A stretch of 64,000 nucleotides of DNA from Collinsella tanakaei YIT 12063 (lineage in GTDB: Bacteria > Actinomycetota > Coriobacteriia > Coriobacteriales > Coriobacteriaceae), in assembly GCF_000225705.1 (NCBI RefSeq), contig NZ_JH126470.1, forward strand, positions 1 through 64,000. Direction: 5' to 3'. Below the pieces are notes generated by a model that saw nothing but the letters and a program-made list of their open reading frames with translations, ran no database searches and had not been told where the DNA came from. Below are positions 20,107 through 61,504 of the stretch, one piece after another (position 1 is the first letter of the stretch; the number at the start of each line of letters is the position of its first letter). Both the position numbers and the translations under genes were made by a program.

Positions 20107-21186
20107 CTACTCATCGCCAAAGCTGATGCCCAAGGCGCGAGCCTCGCGCACCAGGTCGCTTTGCGGGTCGACGTACTTGAGCTTGCCGGCGACCTCTTCA
20201 ATCGGCACGCGGCACATGCTGCCGTTGCGCTGGGCAACCATGAAGCCGTACTCGCCCTCAAGCGCACCCAGGGCAGCCTCGACGCCGCACTGGGACGCGA
20301 AGATGCGGTCCTGGGCGTCGGGCGCGCCTCCGCGCTGGGTGTGGCCGGGAATGGCGACGCGGGTTTCGCGGCCGGTCGCCTGCTCGATCTGGTGGGCCAG
20401 GTCGTAGGCGATGGAGGGGGAGGTGCGCTCGGCCAGCTTGGCCTTGTACTCCTTCTTGGACAGGGCAGCGTCCTGCTTGGAGATGGCGCCCTCTGCCACC
20501 ACCACGATGGTGAAGCGGCTGCCCGCTTCCATGCGGCGCTCGATGGCGGCCTGAACGTTGGCGATGTCGTAGGGGATCTCCGGGATCAGACACACGTCCG
20601 CGCCACCGGCGACGGCGGAGTACAGCGGAATCCAACCAACCTTGTGGCCCATGATCTCGATGACAAAGACGCGGCCGTGGCTGGACGCGGTGGTGTGGAT
20701 GTCGTCGATGCAACGGGTCGCGACCTCGACGGCGCTGGTGAAGCCAAAGGTGAGGTCGGTGCCAAAGGTATCGTTATCGATGGTTTTGGGCAGGGCGATG
20801 ACGTTGAGGTCCTCTTTGCGCAGGCGGTTGGCGGTCTTGGTGGAGCCGTTGCCGCCCAGCATGAACAGGCAGTCCAGGCGCAGCTTCTGATAGGTCTTCA
20901 CCATGGCGGGGACCTTTTCGACTCCGTCCTCCTCCGGGGTGTTCAGGCGCTTGAACGGCGTGCGGCTGGTGCCCAGAATGGTGCCGCCGCGGGTGAGGAT
21001 GCCGCTGAAGTCGCTGGGCTTCATAAGGTCGTAGCGACCGTAGATAAGGCCCTGGTAGCCGTCCTTGAAGCCGTAGATCTCAACGGGCTCGTGGGCGTTG
21101 TTGATCATGGTCTTGACGATGCCGCGCATGGTGGCGTTCAACGCCTGGCAGTCGCCGCCGCTGGTAAGAAGTCCAATCCTGGGCAT
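20107..21186 (-). CDS. pfkA: 6-phosphofructokinase (group III type)
   Basis: A 359-residue enzyme that phosphorylates fructose 6-phosphate in glycolysis. GGDCQALNA (residues 10-18) replaces the usual GGDCPGLNA. GGNGSTKTA (111-119) has Gly at the position that is Asp in pyrophosphate-dependent enzymes, and PKTIDND (133-139) has the Lys seen in group III enzymes. Together this suggests ATP as donor, by analogy with actinobacterial PFKs of the Gly/Lys type, but only an assay would decide. EIMGHKVGWIPL and PGHTQRGG are also present. ATG 21186 follows GGGGGAGG by five bases. The gene stands alone. Confidence 0.92.
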   Translation of the reverse strand: MPRIGLLTSGGDCQALNATMRGIVKTMINNAHEPVEIYGFKDGYQGLIYGRYDLMKPSDFSGILTRGGTILGTSRTPFKRLNTPEEDGVEKVPAMVKTYQKLRLDCLFMLGGNGSTKTANRLRKEDLNVIALPKTIDNDTFGTDLTFGFTSAVEVATRCIDDIHTTASSHGRVFVIEIMGHKVGWIPLYSAVAGGADVCLIPEIPYDIANVQAAIERRMEAGSRFTIVVVAEGAISKQDAALSKKEYKAKLAERTSPSIAYDLAHQIEQATGRETRVAIPGHTQRGGAPDAQDRIFASQCGVEAALGALEGEYGFMVAQRNGSMCRVPIEEVAGKLKYVDPQSDLVREARALGISFGDE

Positions 21187-21561
21187 GGTTCCTCCCCCAA
21201 GGGTTCAAATGGTGTGCGCCGGCGGTCTCACGTTGGCGGGCGCTGTCGTGCGTGCTTAGGCGCGAGTTCAAGCGCGTGCTTAAGCCGCGTGCCGGCGTGG
21301 GCGCGCGGTTTGGTGCGGCGCCACTCTTGCAGATTCTTTCTAGTTTGGCACAAACCTTATGCCGCGTGGGGCGTTGGCGCCAATCTTGACGAGTTCCTGT
21401 TAGGGATTTTACGTTTGCGTGCTGTTGAGGGGTGCCCTCGCGCGGCTACGAGCGGGCGCTGCCGGTTACGGGCGGGTGTGTGCGCGGGTGCGGGCGGGTG
21501 TGGGCGGCTACGAGCGCGGCCCCGCGCTCACGGGCCGTGGGCTCGGTGACGCGGCGAGTGC
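21187..21561. other. Non-coding DNA upstream of pfkA, G/C-simple
   Basis: No gene seen. Between about 21440 and 21545 the sequence is a degenerate GCGGGTGCG-rich stretch. The pfkA promoter must lie in the proximal part, but no clear -10/-35 pair was found. Confidence 0.4.
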
Positions 21562-21776
21562 CAAATAATGCGTTAGTGCGAAGGTTTGGTCAAATAGTCG
21601 CTTAGTGCGGTTCGGGCGAGATATAGCAAGGGTACCTTATGAATAGCGCTCTTAAATATCGCCAGTTGGAGGACTTGATCGGAGCTGCTCGGTGAATAAG
21701 AAAGTCGAGCTGGGCCGCCTTCAAACCGCACTAACGCATTATTTGACCAAGCCTCCGCACTAACGTACTTTTTGAC
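21562..21776. repeat. Intergenic repeat element, copy 1 (opposed unit arrays)
   Basis: The left side carries two inverted units (21562-21580 and 21588-21610). The right side carries two forward units (21726-21748 and 21755-21776) of the form CCGCACTAACGCATTATTTG followed by ACC. The outermost left unit and the first right unit are exact 19-bp inverted complements. The core includes gggtaccttatgaatag (21630-21646), shared exactly with copy 2 at 57405-57688. No protein-coding capacity is evident. Confidence 0.8.
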
Positions 21777-22073
21777 GCTCTCTCTTCTCGGTCCCCGTGC
21801 TTCAGGATTTCTGCCGCACCCCTAACTCGCTTTTTGGCCTAGACCCCGCCTTGCGCGCTCTCGGCCCGGATTGACCGTTCGGAATGGCGGGCGGCGGCCA
21901 TACAGGCGTTTCGCGGTTCAGGCCCGATCCTCATGTTCAGCGCAGGCGATATGGACGATAATCAAGAGCGGTCAACACGGCGCACCGACGCGCCGTGCAA
22001 GTTATTCTGCAGCTGCGGGGACCTCGCTGTTTGAAGCGCGACGCGCCATCGCTGCAGGTAGAAGGGGGACCGT

Positions 22074-23714
22074 ATGAATACAACACACGCTGCGGGCGGT
22101 CGTTACTATAGCATGGACGCCGCGCGCGCGGACGAGGGATACGACGCTTCTGATGTGGAGACCGACTTCCTCGGTGAGGAGATCGATTTCGCAGAGGCGG
22201 AGCTCAATTCCGCCAACGACCTTGCGGCCGGACCGGTGGGCGTAGGCGCGGACGGCGACCCCGAGGACGTCGACCCCACGGACACGGAGATCGCGCGCGA
22301 TATGCTCGACTTCATCGAGGCGAGTCCCAGCATGTTCCATTCCGCCGCGTCGATATGCGACTGGCTGGACGATGCCGGGTTCACCTATCTGCCAGAATCC
22401 GCCGCGTGGGACCTCGAGCCGGGCGGGGCGTACTACACCCAGCGCAACGGTTCAAGCGTCATCGCCTGGCAAGTGGGCGAGGGCGTCCCGGCGCCCGCCG
22501 CGGGCGCGCAGCAAGCGGACTTTCGCTTCGCGGACGAACTCGACTGCCCCGCGTATCACTTCCAAGTCGCCGCGTCGCACGCCGACTCGCCCACGTTCAA
22601 GGTCAAAGCGGTGCCGGAGTTGGACGGCGCGGGCGAATCGCTGCGCCTCAACGTCGAGGCCTACGGCGGCATGATCGACTATAGCTGGTTCGACCGTCCG
22701 CTGGGTCTGGCTGGCCGCGTGCTGGTGCGTGAAGATATGGACGAGGAGGGCGCGGATGGCGCTGCCGACACGGACGCCGCCGTCACGCCGGTGGCGATCC
22801 ACAGCCGCCTGCTGTTCATCGACCGTCCCGTCGCCATCATCCCAAGCCTCGCCATTCACATGGATCGAGAGGTCAACAAGGGCTTCGCGCCCAATCGTCA
22901 GGTCGATCTCTGCCCGCTGTTCTCCGCGGGCGAGCTCAAGGCTGGTGCGTTCGACGCCCTCGTTGCCCGCGAGCTGGGCGTGCGTCCGGACCAAGTGCTT
23001 GCGCGCGACCTGTTCCTGGTGAACCTGCAGCCCGCTCAGGTCTGGGGCGAGGGCGAGGAGTTCGTTAGCTCCCCGCGCTTGGATGACCTTATGTGCGCCT
23101 ATACCTCGCTAAGCGCATTTTTGCAGGTAGGGGCGCCGTTAGAGAACCGCATCTCCGTGTACTGCTGTTTTGATAACGAGGAGGTTGGTTCTAACACCAA
23201 GCAGGGTGCCATGTCCACATTGCTGCGCGACACGCTGGAGCGCATCAACCAGTCGCTGGGCTTCTCGTCCCAAGACCTGCGCCGCGCGCTCGCCGCATCG
23301 TTTATGGTGAGCTGCGACAACGCGCACGCCGTGCACCCCAACCGCTCGGAGCGCGCCGACGAGCGCAACCGCTGCGTGCTCAACGGCGGGCTGGTGATCA
23401 AAGAGGCGGCAAACCAGGCGTACTGCACGGACGCTTTCAGCCGCGCGGTTTTCGCGGCGCTGCTCGACCGCGCCGGCGTCCCGCGCCAAACCTTCGCCAA
23501 CAAGAGCGACATGGCGGGTGGCTCCACGCTGGGCAACCTTTCAAATATGCAGGTCAGCATGCATGGCGTGGACGTGGGCTGCGCGCAGCTGGCTATGCAC
23601 TCGTCCTATGAGACGGCCGGCGCCCGCGACGTCGCGCACGCCATCGCGGCATTCGAGGCGTTCTACGAGGCGGATGTGCATATCGACGGGGCGCAGGCGG
23701 CGTTGCTGGCGTAA
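22074..23714 (+). CDS. M18-family aminopeptidase with acidic N-terminal extension
   Basis: A 546-residue metallopeptidase of the aspartyl aminopeptidase family, which removes N-terminal acidic residues from peptides using two zinc ions. The family domain starts near residue 77. Ligands include His169 in AASHADSPTF, the Asp-Asn-Glu-Glu segment FDNEEVGS, and a C-terminal MHSSYETAG with the last His. M18 enzymes are normally 420-470 residues; the extra 75 or so acidic residues at the N-terminus have no recognised domain. GGGGGA lies before the ATG at 22074, so the extension seems to be translated, though an internal start at Met77 is possible. panE follows. Confidence 0.9.
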   Translation: MNTTHAAGGRYYSMDAARADEGYDASDVETDFLGEEIDFAEAELNSANDLAAGPVGVGADGDPEDVDPTDTEIARDMLDFIEASPSMFHSAASICDWLDDAGFTYLPESAAWDLEPGGAYYTQRNGSSVIAWQVGEGVPAPAAGAQQADFRFADELDCPAYHFQVAASHADSPTFKVKAVPELDGAGESLRLNVEAYGGMIDYSWFDRPLGLAGRVLVREDMDEEGADGAADTDAAVTPVAIHSRLLFIDRPVAIIPSLAIHMDREVNKGFAPNRQVDLCPLFSAGELKAGAFDALVARELGVRPDQVLARDLFLVNLQPAQVWGEGEEFVSSPRLDDLMCAYTSLSAFLQVGAPLENRISVYCCFDNEEVGSNTKQGAMSTLLRDTLERINQSLGFSSQDLRRALAASFMVSCDNAHAVHPNRSERADERNRCVLNGGLVIKEAANQAYCTDAFSRAVFAALLDRAGVPRQTFANKSDMAGGSTLGNLSNMQVSMHGVDVGCAQLAMHSSYETAGARDVAHAIAAFEAFYEADVHIDGAQAALLA

Positions 23715-56230: not shown

Positions 56231-57112
56231 TTACAGGTCGCGGCGTTTGCCGATGGCGATGTAGGCCGCGCTTCCTATGAGAATCCAGATGACGCCGGTG
56301 ACTGCGCCCCATGCCCAGCCGGGCACGGCGCCGATAAGCGGCAGGGTTGTCGCGGTATCGAACATGGTGTTGGCGCCGTTGGAGAACGCCTGCAGTACGG
56401 AGCTGGGCATCCAAGTGGCTATGCTGGTGAGCGCGGGGGCGATGGGTTGCAGGAAGGAGAGCATGCCGCCAGACGAGAACGCGAGCGCGCTGAGCGTAAG
56501 CGGGAATAGGCCGCTGATAGGGGCGAACGCGAAGATATAGACGGGGAGCTTTTTGCGGAAGATCGCTACGGCGATCATGGCGATGACCGTGATTGCCCAG
56601 GTTGCAAGCCATGCGCCTAGAAGCCAGAGGGCGAAGGCGAGCGGGTTGTCCGGCCCCTGGATGGCAAAGCCGTAGGGCATGGTGAGGAAGACCTTCAAGA
56701 TCACCAGGTGGAAGATGCAGCCCAGGGCAAGCATGAGGGCGGACCAAATGCCGGCGAGAAGAATCTTCTCGCCCAAATACAAAGCGCGCCCTCGCGGGGA
56801 GGAGACCAGGCTTTTTACATAGCCCTCCGAGAGATCAGGTAACGTGTACTCGACCATGCCGAACGACGCGGCCAGGGCGAGGACGGAGAAGGATCCCAGC
56901 ATGGTGCTTCCCAGGAAAGAGGACGGCGTCGCCAGCTCCTTGATGAGGTTGGCGTTTTCCGCCGGGCCCAAGCCGGATTGCAAGATAAACCAGGTGAGGC
57001 CCACCTCGAGGCAGGCGATAAAGAGCAGCACCGAGGCGTATTGCCAAAGTTCGCCGCGCAAGCCGCGGATGCGGGTCATGCGGTAGAGGTCCGAGCGCAA
57101 CAGGTTGAGCAT
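56231..57112 (-). CDS. ABC-2 type permease, first subunit
   Basis: A 293-residue six-segment membrane protein, MLNLLRSDLYRMTRIRGLRG, paralogous to the permease at 54034. It is the first gene of the four-gene unit (permease, ATPase, permease, kinase). With a box of direct repeats 170 bp upstream, it is probably induced by a peptide antibiotic signal through a missing response regulator. Start is ATG 57112, with GGAAGG about 10 bases upstream. Confidence 0.85.
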   Translation of the reverse strand: MLNLLRSDLYRMTRIRGLRGELWQYASVLLFIACLEVGLTWFILQSGLGPAENANLIKELATPSSFLGSTMLGSFSVLALAASFGMVEYTLPDLSEGYVKSLVSSPRGRALYLGEKILLAGIWSALMLALGCIFHLVILKVFLTMPYGFAIQGPDNPLAFALWLLGAWLATWAITVIAMIAVAIFRKKLPVYIFAFAPISGLFPLTLSALAFSSGGMLSFLQPIAPALTSIATWMPSSVLQAFSNGANTMFDTATTLPLIGAVPGWAWGAVTGVIWILIGSAAYIAIGKRRDL

Positions 57113-57280
57113 GGGGTCACCTTCCTTTTTGCGAAGTGAACAGAAGATAGGCGAGGGCAGCGATGATGGCAAGGTCGATCGCGATGTTTATGGCGTCGGC
57201 GGGGTGCATGCCGCGCCTCCTCTCTGATGCGGTTGCCGTGCATCTTTATAATGCGGGCCGGACCTTGGGAGATTTATAAG

Positions 57281-57404: not shown

Positions 57405-57688
57405 GACAAAAATCGACTTAGTGCGGAGGTTGGACCAAATAATGGCTTAGTGCGGTTCAAATCGTGACAAATAATGCGTTAGTGCAGTCCGGGCGAGGCA
57501 TAGAAAGGGTACCTTATGAATAGGGTGTTTACATCATCCAAACTAGAAGGCTTGGACGATGCCGGTCTATGCATAAGAAAGGTGTCCCGGGCCGCTTCCA
57601 AACCGCACTAACGCACTATTTGACCAAATCTCCGCACTAGCGCGTTTTTTGACACTCCGCCCTTTCCGCACTAACGCGTTTTTTGGCC
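57405..57688. repeat. Intergenic repeat element, copy 2 (opposed unit arrays)
   Basis: Three inverted units on the left (57405-57426, 57432-57455, 57466-57486) and three forward on the right (57603-57625, 57632-57653, 57666-57688) share the same form as copy 1, CCGCACTAACGC followed by a T-rich half and TTTGACC. The core again has gggtaccttatgaatag (57508-57524), but the rest of the core differs from copy 1. The element lies between the ABC exporter and the fused transporter. Confidence 0.8.
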
Positions 57689-57868: not shown

Positions 57869-60800
57869 ATGTTCGATAAGAGGTTGCTGTCGCTTGTACC
57901 AGGCATTATGCCGCTTATTGTTGGATCGGTCGCAGCAAAATGGATCGCCTTGCTATGCAATATCGCTATCATCGCAACGATCGGCAACGTGTTCGCCGCG
58001 CTGCTTGCGGGGATGCCGGCGTCCGGAATTGGCTCTGGTGCGGCGGCTGCGGGCGCGGCGGCGTTCGGCGCTCGCGCGGCGATGACGCTTGCGATGCTGA
58101 TCATCGTCCGCGCTATTTCGATCTATGTGGCCCAGCGCGCCGGCGATAAGGCGGCCTTCGCGGCCAAGCGCCAGGTGCGCCAGCTGGTGTACGACAAGCT
58201 GGTCCAGATGGGCCCGGCGTACACGGAGCAGGTGTCCACCGCGGAGGCGGTGCAGACCAGCGTCGAGGGCGCCCAGCAGCTCGAGGTCTATTTTGGCGGC
58301 TACCTGCCACAGCTGTTCTACGCGGTACTTGCCCCCGTCACCCTGTTTGTGGCGCTAGTGGGGCAGGCGGGCTTGCCGGCGACCGTGCTGCTGGTCATCG
58401 TCCCGCTCATCCCCATTTCCATCATGATGGTGATGCGCAACGCCAAGAAGGTGGCTGCCGAGTATTGGGGCAGCTATGTGGATTTGGGCGGCAGCTTTTT
58501 GGAGGCGGTGCAGGGCCTGACCACGCTGAAGATCTATCAGGCGGATGGGCGCTGGCACAAGCGGATGAACGACGAGTCGGAGGGCTTTCGCCGCGCGACC
58601 ATGAAGATGCTGCGCGTGCAGCTCAACTCCATCAACGTGATGGACCTGGTCGCTTTTGGTGGCGCCGCTGCGGGTATTGTGGTGGCGGTGCTGCAGCTGG
58701 CGTCTGGCGCCATAGGCTTTTCGGGTGCCTTTTTGGTTGTATTCCTGTCGCAGGAGTTCTTCTTGCCCATGCGTCGTCTGGGCTCGCTGTTTCATACGGC
58801 CATGAACGGCATGAGTGCGGCTAAGACCATGTTTCGCATTTTGGACGCACCGGTACCGCCGCGCGGCGAGCGCGAGCTGGACGGTCGCGGCGACATCGTG
58901 TGCCGTGGCGTGGGCTACTCCTACGGCGAGGGCGGTGCCCGCGGCGAACATGTGGTGCTTGATCAGGTGAATTGCTCGATGCGCCGCGGCAGCTTGGTGG
59001 CGATTGTGGGCGAGAGCGGTTCGGGCAAGTCGACTTTGGCGGGTATTTTGTCCGGTCGCAAGGCTTCTTACCTGGGAAAGATTGAAGTAGGCGGCGTGGA
59101 CGTGCGCGACGCCACACTCGACTCGCTGATGCGCGCGGTGACGCTGGTGCCCATGGCGGGCCATCTGTTCGCAGGATCGCTGCGGTCCAATTTGCTGCTG
59201 GCGCGCCCTGATGCGACGGACCGGGACCTTATGGACGTTCTCGAGCGGTGCCGCATCGCTGGGTTTGTGCGCGCAAACGGCGGGCTCGATATGGAGCTGG
59301 CGGAAGGCGGCGCCAACCTTTCCGGCGGCCAGCGCCAGCGCGTTTGCGTGGCCCGCGCCCTGCTGCATGATTCGCCCATCTACATCTTTGACGAGGCTAC
59401 CTCGAACGTCGATGTGGAGAGCGAGCGCGCGATCGGCCGCGTGATCGACGAACTGGCAGGGGACCATACGGTGATAGTCATCGCTCACCGTCTGGCTTCC
59501 GTGGCGCATGCGGACCAGACCCTGGTGTTCAGCTGCGGACATCTGGTAGAGCAGGGAACGCACGCCCAGCTGCTTGCTGCCGGCGGGATATACGCCAGCA
59601 TGTGGAGCAGCCAGCATGAGCTTTCCGCCTATGCGTTGGACGAGGAGAACGAGCGCGCCTCGATGCCCGCGGGTGTCGTGGTGGACGCGGCGGCGCTTGA
59701 ATCCGGACCGGCTCCCGTGCAGGCATCGCACGCAGCTGCGGGGGCGCCTTCGTCCTGCGGACCCCGGCGCTCGGCGTTCTCCATCATGGCGCGTATGATC
59801 GGCCTGGTGCGTCCGCTGGCTGCGCACCTGGCGCTTGCCGTCGCGCTGGGCACGGCGGGGTCGTTGGCGGCGACGTTTGTGGCGGCCTTTGGCGGATACG
59901 GCATCATAGCCGCCACAGGCCAGGGGACGGGCCTCGCCGTCGCGAGCGCCTGCGTGCTCGCGGTGGCGTGCGGCGTGCTGCGCGGACCGTTGCATTACGG
60001 CGAGCAGCTGGCAAACCACTACATTGCGTTTCGCTTGCTCGCCCTTATCCGCGACCACGTTTTCGATGCGCTGCGACGCCTCGCCCCAGCCAAGCTCGAG
60101 GGGCGCGACCGCGGCGACTTGGTATCGCTGGTGACCGCCGATATCGAGCTGCTCGAGGTGTTCTACGCGCACACCATCTCGCCCATCGCGATCGCCATCG
60201 CGTCCTCTGCCGTCATGCTCGCGTTCATCGGCGCGCACTCGCTGCCGCTGGCTGCCATCGCCCTGGCGGGTTACCTGGTGCTGGGCGCCATCATGCCCAT
60301 CGCTTCGTCCAAGCTGTGCGGAAACGCTGGCAGGGCATCGCGCGACGCGGCGGGATCCATCAGCGCGTACGTGCTCGATGGTTTGCGCGGCCTTGCCGAG
60401 ACCGTGCAGTTCGCGGGCGTCTCCAAGCGCTCGGCCGGCCTCGCCGCGCAGACCGACGCTATGGGCTCCACGGACCGTTCACTGCACGTGCGCTCCGCTG
60501 CGGTCGAGGGCCTGGCGGATGCGATGGTGCTGCTCACCAGCCTCGCCATGATCGCGACGTCGCTGGGGCTCTACGCCGCGGGCGACCTCTCGTTCTCGTC
60601 GGCGTTCATCTGCTCCTTTGCGTACCTGTCCTCCTCTGGCCCGGTGCTGGCGGTGTGCCGTCTGGGCACGTCCCTGCAGGCGACGCTCGCCTCTGGCGCG
60701 CGTGTGCTCGATCTTTTGGACGAGGAGCCCCAGACCGTGGACGTGCTCGATGGCGCGGACGTTACCTTTGACGGGGCGGCGTGCGAACACGTGACGTTCT

Positions 60801-61504
60801 CCTACGGCTGTGTCGCCGCCGACACGAGCGCCAGAACGTTGCGCGGTGTCAGGGCGGCTTCAAACGGCGCGCCCGCGTGCATGCCCTCGTCCAAAGACGA
60901 TTGCATCTTGGATGACATCTCGATTTCGTTTGAGCCCGGTGAGATGGTGTGCGTTACCGGACGGTCCGGCTCGGGAAAGTCGACGCTGCTCAAGCTGCTT
61001 ATGAGGTTTTGGGATCCTACGTCTGGCGCGGTGATGATGAGCGGACGCGACCTGCGCGGCGTCAACACCGCGAGTCTGCGTAACGCGATTGGGTACATGA
61101 CGCAGGATACGCATTTGTTTGTGGGCACCATTGGCGACAACCTGCGCATCGCGCGTGAGGACGCCACGGATTCCGAGCTCGATAGCGCCTGCGAGGCGGC
61201 GGCGCTCACGTCGCTGATCGCAAGGCTGCCGCAGGGGTACGACACCCCGGTTGCGGAGCTGGGCGATTCTCTGTCCGGCGGCGAGCGCCAACGCATTGGC
61301 CTTGCGCGCATTTTCTTGCACGATGCCCCGTTTGTGTTGCTTGACGAGCCCACCAGCAACCTAGATGCGCTCAACGAGGCGGCGGTTATGCGCGCGATCG
61401 ATCGTCGTCGCGCCGGCAAAACGGTGGTGTTGGTGAGCCATCGAGCGTCTACCTGCGCATTTGCCGATCGCTTCTACAGCGTGGAGCACGGACGCATCAG
61501 CTAG
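57869..61504 (+). CDS. Fused double ABC exporter, CydDC/IrtAB-like
   Basis: A 1211-residue protein: two half-transporters in one chain, each with an ABC-1 membrane domain and an ATPase. The first ATPase has GESGSGKST (about residues 380-388), LSGGQRQR (about 484) and FDEATSNVD; the second has GRSGSGKST (about 1030), LSGGERQR (about 1134) and LDEPTSNLD. CydDC normally consists of two separate genes and serves cytochrome bd assembly; no cyd genes occur here. With a DtxR/IdeR-like box directly upstream, iron or siderophore transport, as by mycobacterial IrtAB, is the alternative I favour. Start is ATG 57869 with AAGGAG upstream. Confidence 0.88.
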   Translation: MFDKRLLSLVPGIMPLIVGSVAAKWIALLCNIAIIATIGNVFAALLAGMPASGIGSGAAAAGAAAFGARAAMTLAMLIIVRAISIYVAQRAGDKAAFAAKRQVRQLVYDKLVQMGPAYTEQVSTAEAVQTSVEGAQQLEVYFGGYLPQLFYAVLAPVTLFVALVGQAGLPATVLLVIVPLIPISIMMVMRNAKKVAAEYWGSYVDLGGSFLEAVQGLTTLKIYQADGRWHKRMNDESEGFRRATMKMLRVQLNSINVMDLVAFGGAAAGIVVAVLQLASGAIGFSGAFLVVFLSQEFFLPMRRLGSLFHTAMNGMSAAKTMFRILDAPVPPRGERELDGRGDIVCRGVGYSYGEGGARGEHVVLDQVNCSMRRGSLVAIVGESGSGKSTLAGILSGRKASYLGKIEVGGVDVRDATLDSLMRAVTLVPMAGHLFAGSLRSNLLLARPDATDRDLMDVLERCRIAGFVRANGGLDMELAEGGANLSGGQRQRVCVARALLHDSPIYIFDEATSNVDVESERAIGRVIDELAGDHTVIVIAHRLASVAHADQTLVFSCGHLVEQGTHAQLLAAGGIYASMWSSQHELSAYALDEENERASMPAGVVVDAAALESGPAPVQASHAAAGAPSSCGPRRSAFSIMARMIGLVRPLAAHLALAVALGTAGSLAATFVAAFGGYGIIAATGQGTGLAVASACVLAVACGVLRGPLHYGEQLANHYIAFRLLALIRDHVFDALRRLAPAKLEGRDRGDLVSLVTADIELLEVFYAHTISPIAIAIASSAVMLAFIGAHSLPLAAIALAGYLVLGAIMPIASSKLCGNAGRASRDAAGSISAYVLDGLRGLAETVQFAGVSKRSAGLAAQTDAMGSTDRSLHVRSAAVEGLADAMVLLTSLAMIATSLGLYAAGDLSFSSAFICSFAYLSSSGPVLAVCRLGTSLQATLASGARVLDLLDEEPQTVDVLDGADVTFDGAACEHVTFSYGCVAADTSARTLRGVRAASNGAPACMPSSKDDCILDDISISFEPGEMVCVTGRSGSGKSTLLKLLMRFWDPTSGAVMMSGRDLRGVNTASLRNAIGYMTQDTHLFVGTIGDNLRIAREDATDSELDSACEAAALTSLIARLPQGYDTPVAELGDSLSGGERQRIGLARIFLHDAPFVLLDEPTSNLDALNEAAVMRAIDRRRAGKTVVLVSHRASTCAFADRFYSVEHGRIS

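Follow-up and report, generated by a model that had tools for sequence, protein, structure and literature searches.

The streptococcal BOX element is modular, with its parts arranged as boxA, boxB and boxC. The elements described here are likewise modular, intergenic fold-back repeats in which one module occurs in variable number, but their variable modules lie on the outside, as two opposed arrays, and it is by this description that they are set apart from BOX. Transposons such as Mu, Tn7 and Tn402 have, at each end, several inverted binding sites some 20 bp long. The present elements share this arrangement of several inverted sites per end, yet they have no cargo gene, and neither an autonomous copy nor a target duplication was seen. 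For REP-type repeats the explanation is a RAYT enzyme encoded in the same genome. The elements resemble REPs, BIMEs and REPINs in being intergenic, species-specific and composed of units oriented both ways; they differ in their array-core-array construction, in a unit that is not itself palindromic and lacks the GTAG/CGTC tag (as the tag is given in the part of PMC3733652 used here), and in occupying 26 places, compared with the more than 100 copies given as usual in the section of PMC2817692 on which we draw. The same section has REPs and RAYTs coevolving (PMC2817692). A further difference from REPs and REPINs is that no match to Y1_Tnp, the RAYT-type transposase family, occurs in the C. tanakaei genome or in G220 and G224, the two genomes of genus g55 that harbor a look-alike family (completeness 99.9, 99 and 90%, respectively).

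The probability that these are lineage-specific, interspersed, non-coding fold-back elements, similar to BIMEs or REPINs in behaviour and with units read by a trans-acting factor, is put at about one half. Units of about 20-24 bp, placed at set distances in two facing arrays around a core of near-constant length, would most likely serve a sequence-specific trans-acting protein as recognition sites, and with its arms opposed a strand could fold back on itself, perhaps as a hairpin in the cell. Within one lineage the family would have spread by copying and reached many intergenic sites; thereafter, its members would be inherited in place, with the units and the factor that reads them changing together. 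The C. tanakaei and g55 families would both obey these rules. Established so far are the copy number, the intergenic position, the fixed spacing and the lack of R1 matches in 42 congeners and, for g55, the shared loci, the compensated arm changes and the two-base difference; the empty sites in relatives described below also speak for this reading. A further reading can be offered only tentatively, namely that of an interspersed bacterial element of a kind not named before and independent of RAYT, whose arrays outlast the alignable spacer, whose units track the putative factor, and of which each lineage has its own version. What draws attention to these elements is that two repeat populations reside in genomes with no detected RAYT, one of them (in g55) at shared loci despite a two-base difference in the arms. 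The question of what sustains such repeats, whether enzyme, structural protein or base pairing as such, thereby becomes testable.

Copies and layout in the Collinsella tanakaei genome

Near-exact units (GCACTAANNCNNTWTTTGNC, at most one mismatch) number 132 in the 2.49-Mb genome, and the reversed control pattern is absent. The initial annotation had described opposed units at two places of the window, which is the whole 64-kb stretch of DNA that was analysed, and had noted that both cores contain GGGTACCTTATGAATAG and differ otherwise; both observations are confirmed, while its interpretation overall is partly supported. Its view of a repeat family stands, as 24 full copies on nine contigs rule out a local duplication. 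A fragment of a right arm and a palindrome without a core bring the number of places to 26, and the 132 units agree in number with 128 in the full copies, 2 in the fragment and 2 in the palindrome. Within the 64-kb window alone the signal is less striking (16 matches to a 12-base string at up to two mismatches, with 9.9 expected). The core block GGTACCTTATGAATAG, at up to two mismatches, is present 22 times in the genome and once as the reversed pattern. An RNA model (R1) built from the 22 copies found by this block gave 42 matches in the genome, 24 of them strong (E up to 6e-14); the remainder were the opposite strand of the same copies and a weak match at C3:126981. The coreless version is compact: a single unit faces its mirror copy, and a small palindrome lies between them.

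Table 1. Parts and gene neighbours of the two window copies, and the two incomplete places (window positions unless a contig or locus is named)
Feature	Position	Strand	Remarks
Copy 1, span	21560-21776		followed by the degenerate unit
Copy 1, outer left unit	21560..21579	-	0 mismatches to unit pattern
Copy 1, inner left unit	21589..21608	-	1 mismatch; spacing 29 bp
Copy 1, core (gap between facing units)	21609..21727	+	119 bp; RNA model R1 match 21599-21737
Copy 1, conserved core block GGTACCTTATGAATAG	21631..21646	+	
Copy 1, first right unit (R1)	21728..21747	+	0 mismatches
Copy 1, second right unit (R2)	21757..21776	+	1 mismatch
Copy 1, degenerate third right unit	21819..21838	+	2 mismatches; spacing displaced
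Copy 1, phosphofructokinase gene	20107-21186	-	PF00365
Copy 1, M18 aminopeptidase gene	22074-23714	+	PF02127
Copy 2, span	57405-57687		three units on each side
Copy 2, outer left unit	57405..57424	-	0 mismatches
Copy 2, middle left unit	57434..57453	-	1 mismatch
Copy 2, inner left unit	57466..57485	-	0 mismatches
Copy 2, core (gap)	57486..57604	+	119 bp; RNA model R1 match 57476-57614
Copy 2, conserved core block GGTACCTTATGAATAG	57508..57523	+	
Copy 2, right unit R1	57605..57624	+	0 mismatches
Copy 2, right unit R2	57634..57653	+	1 mismatch
Copy 2, right unit R3	57668..57687	+	0 mismatches
Copy 2, ORF without Pfam match	56231-57172	-	
Copy 2, long ABC-transporter gene	57869-61504	+	PF00005 and PF00664
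Right-arm fragment	C8:74427		2 units
Coreless palindrome	C3:126971-127060 (L131:4971-5060)		2 units

Across the 24 copies the layout is of two to four left units, a core gap, and two or three opposed right units, the unit having the sequence CCGCACTAACGC-NN-TATTTGACC. The gap between the facing units is 119 bp in 19 copies, 118 in four and 122 in one. Spacings near three helical turns predominate: 29 bp (23 on the left, 23 on the right), 32 bp (21, on the left) and 33-34 bp (12 left, 10 right). The number of outer units differs between copies, and the ends are ragged, homology between copies breaking off at different units; in a single case (L015 as compared with L009 and L013) one 29-bp step is missing from each arm. 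Codon-scored ORF predictions leave 21 of the 24 copies clear of genes, and the other three (L008, L014 and L016) overlap ORF ends by 2, 36 and 43 bp, respectively.

The copies are old: in 22 of them, aligned across core and inner units, pairwise identity ranges from 0.57 to 0.94, with a median of 0.71. In the same alignment (A1) up to 15 consecutive columns reach 90% identity or more, compared with no more than 13 in 2000 column shuffles. Hardly any variation is seen in the first right unit (23 copies and the fragment, without L015), and the core block and short stretches are also close to invariant.

Relatives, transposases and mobility

R1 has no match in any of the 42 congeneric genomes scanned (under stricter filters, and with 76 candidates per genome scored); of the 43 genomes only that of C. 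tanakaei is matched. A model of the arms (R2), applied to 395 genomes of the order with 14 candidates scored per genome, gave 18 matches in the C. tanakaei genome and one weak match elsewhere, in G224. A distribution of the unit across Coriobacteriia, as envisaged in the initial annotation, is thus not borne out. That annotation had held that a unit absent from other intergenic regions of this genome and of its relatives would point to mere local duplication; on this the outcome is divided, as the unit recurs at 24 further places in its own genome and the 42 congeners are without an R1 match. The core block with one mismatch has a single match in G024, at a locus where R1 is negative. In a collection of 84,980 species genomes, which may omit records of the own species, the unit pattern recovered just one stretch, from an unrelated MAG. 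This locus (L048:905-927; JANYBP010000003.1) contains one exact, solitary 23-bp unit, CCGCACTAACGCACTATTTGACC, and otherwise only matches with five mismatches. In the open-licence PMC literature no paper was found on such repeats in Collinsella or Coriobacteria.

Two syntenic sites were compared in relatives. G020 has the highest pfkA identity among them (87%), and its spacer between the genes that flank copy L013 is about 190 bp, as against about 720 bp in C. tanakaei, and has no array by eye. Upstream of pfkA, none of 11 tested relatives (29 fetched) has an inverted array above shuffles: scores are 11-14 in the relatives, 9-16 in shuffles, and 35 in C. tanakaei. Such empty sites imply that the element was either gained in the C. 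tanakaei lineage or lost in the relatives.

It would be rather unlikely, though in keeping with these empty sites, that the copies are selfish, MITE-like elements with several binding sites per end, in the manner of Mu or Tn7 ends, and no host role, their transposase being lost or unrecognised. The 24 copies at unrelated places, the lack of an R1 match in the congeners and the variable number of outer units are all compatible with such elements, as is the occurrence of the closer pairs at different places (L013/L015, 94%; L003/L016, 89%). Against them, the ragged ends are accompanied by no target duplication by eye in the listed flanks, for which there is no close empty site to align. No autonomous element was found: the 132 units match 26 places without an internal gene, although an autonomous copy might have been lost at a contig end of the 20-contig assembly. 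Of the two transposase families searched for, Y1 has no match, which also weighs against MITEs; the other, the DDE family rve, has in this genome one sub-threshold match, on contig C12, and its 2.8-kb locus contains no units. Against the preferred reading, no trans-acting factor that reads the units was found.

G020 served as a positive control for Y1_Tnp, with one match (1.2e-11) at C28:109249-109584 (L224). A different palindrome, GTGCCTGTCCC, surrounds this gene, with the CTCAGAAAAGTGCCTGTCCCTTTTCTGAG type on both sides (L115:8762-9850), in the manner of a REP/RAYT system; the core string of that palindrome is absent from the window and from 20 stretches of the C. tanakaei genome. The exclusion of REP in the initial annotation is upheld by the tests made (Y1_Tnp, palindromy and tag), as is that of CRISPR: in place of direct repeats with unique spacers, the units are opposed and the spacers short and related. 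A phage or plasmid origin was rejected, copy 2 and the one g55 element searched having no match in the phage or plasmid collection. Pattern matches in viral contigs (L049 and L226) lie in sequence without arrays, and look like chance.

A look-alike family in genus g55

The weak R2 match in G224 (E 0.0013, not significant, as about 0.5 such matches are expected by chance in a search of 395 genomes) is an element of the same plan and different sequence. Its facing arms are about 79 nt and its core 80-145 nt, as measured at 14 of 20 loci. A model from 15 G224 arms (R3; 11 candidates scored per genome) found at least 11 arms in G224 and at least 11 in G220, and has no match in the C. tanakaei genome; single weak matches in G052, G028 and G259 are by eye not arrays. 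Kinship of the C. tanakaei and g55 families is suggested by the layout, the CCGC...TTTGACC look by eye and the one R2 match, but is not proven.

By BLAST of their flanks, all but one of the 10 G224 loci pair up with all but one of the 10 found in G220, so that the two species have the elements at shared loci. Flank identity is mostly 87-95% and in places 74-84%; the match is on one side only for L204/L200, and on one side plus 39 bp for L216/L207. Arms of paired loci align far above shuffles (mean z 12.9 and 15.1), a signal that is partly sequence common to all copies. For the cores, measured in 8 of the 9 pairs, mean z is 7.8 (just 0.7 for L183/L221), and the 100 bp outside the elements are hardly alignable (z 0.8 and 1.9). 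Aligned identity is 0.80 for arms, 0.73 for cores and a gap-inflated 0.72-0.73 outside. Since fourfold sites of the flanking genes are 0.84 identical (1575 of 1880), and the elements are less alike than these, what has been established is retention and not slow substitution. Retention at shared loci, together with the shared two-base difference described below, would not be expected of decaying MITE-like insertions.

In the left flanks of two G220 loci (L223 and L207) degenerate units, by eye, continue outward in tandem, and the arrays seem as if they grow and decay at their outer ends. At L194, L195 and L197 of G224 a motif of one g55 core class, GTTTCCTCATAAACGAAC, also occurs elsewhere in that genome, exact or nearly so, with no arms in view.

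Arms and cores: pairing, recognition and transcription

The initial annotation had offered hairpins and paired protein-binding sites side by side, and on arm covariation the two families point different ways. Among 21 of the 24 C. tanakaei copies (L010, L015 and L021, without standard spacing, are omitted, and window copy 1 is not included), shuffling right arms among copies revealed no left-right covariation (p of 0.91 for U-2:R1, 0.64 for U-1:R1, 0.97 for U-3:R2 and 0.21 for U-2:R2), which would favour separately kept sites; covariation of the 9-nt spacer is at most a hint (p 0.09). The g55 arms covary at orthologous loci, which would favour pairing. Mapped onto the minimum-energy fold of the G224 copy, 8 of the 9 locus pairs show 35 double changes that preserve base pairing, with 12.4 expected (L176/L223, which has a short right arm in G220, is omitted). 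With columns 31-34 masked, the arms still have 16 compensated double changes, with 4.4 expected (0 of 1000 shuffles), and 55 broken pairs, with 77 expected. As these shuffles lose the sequence common to the units, part of the signal may be shared unit change. Shuffles within species are not significant over all variable arm columns (838/3000), and are so for the middle stretch only (42/3000); tests of single species gave no signal in G220 (2723/5000) and 109/5000 in G224. In the g55 cores, 5 compensated changes against 4.3 expected are not beyond chance.

The two-base difference lies at arm columns 32-33, where all 19 G220 arms, but none of the 20 G224 arms, read CC; the latter have TT in 16, and CA or CG in the other four. 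Column 39 has a further, partial shift. Either selection for pairing or template-switch repair at imperfect palindromes could produce compensating arm changes. Wholesale gene conversion accounts poorly for the two-base difference, because each g55 locus keeps its own core and adjacent variable bases; the CC/TT switch would be better explained by an altered preference of a putative trans-acting factor, such as the preferred reading of lineage-specific fold-back elements supposes.

The units may instead be architectural or regulatory sites that serve the host, through a dedicated binding protein, in the nucleoid, in chromosome organisation or in control of neighbouring genes. Set spacing near three helical turns, the near-constancy of the first right unit and of the core block, and the shared g55 loci would all suit such sites; nevertheless this is distinctly unlikely, in that R1 is unmatched in 42 congeners and the flanking genes (codon-scored ORFs) are tandem for 12 copies, convergent for 8 and divergent for 4, and therefore there is no tie to promoters.

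Multicopy genes for a structured small RNA are very unlikely: the long hairpins of both window copies, the column 57-88 hairpin of the core, the compensating g55 arm changes and a promoter-like match within copy 1 would accord with them, but the RNAalifold covariation term is only -0.56, the g55 core pairs are not compensated beyond chance, copy 2 contains no promoter-like match, and no Rfam family reaches its gathering score in the 64-kb window. The folds of copies 1 and 2 beat 200 of 200 shuffles (z -7.9 and -6.0) because opposed repeats must. The hairpin at alignment columns 57-88 pairs in 74.5% of cells, with 71.7% in shuffles (11/500), and has a covariation score of 0.244, with 0.198 in shuffles (7/500), an excess of a level that related sequences can reach without structure; it is well above slid versions, and the signs of a conserved core fold are weak. 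At nine loci (4 of C. tanakaei, 5 of g55) Rfam yielded nothing credible at E up to 0.5, the sole match over an element being MIR8670 at L200, with 32.8 bits (gathering score 150). A coding core, starting from an apparent ORF at ATGAAT, was rejected, as alignment A1 has no 3-base periodicity and L015 and L022 have early stops. The transcribed core that had been raised as a possibility finds little support so far, whether from Rfam, codon signal or hairpin covariation.

The promoter-like consensus of copy 1 (21565-21593, minus strand; 9/12) consists of TTGACC 17 bp from CATTAT, brought together by the 29-bp spacing of the units, and is possibly a by-product of unit sequence. The intergenic spacer of copy 1 has no terminator-like site, and that of copy 2 has two, both outside the element.
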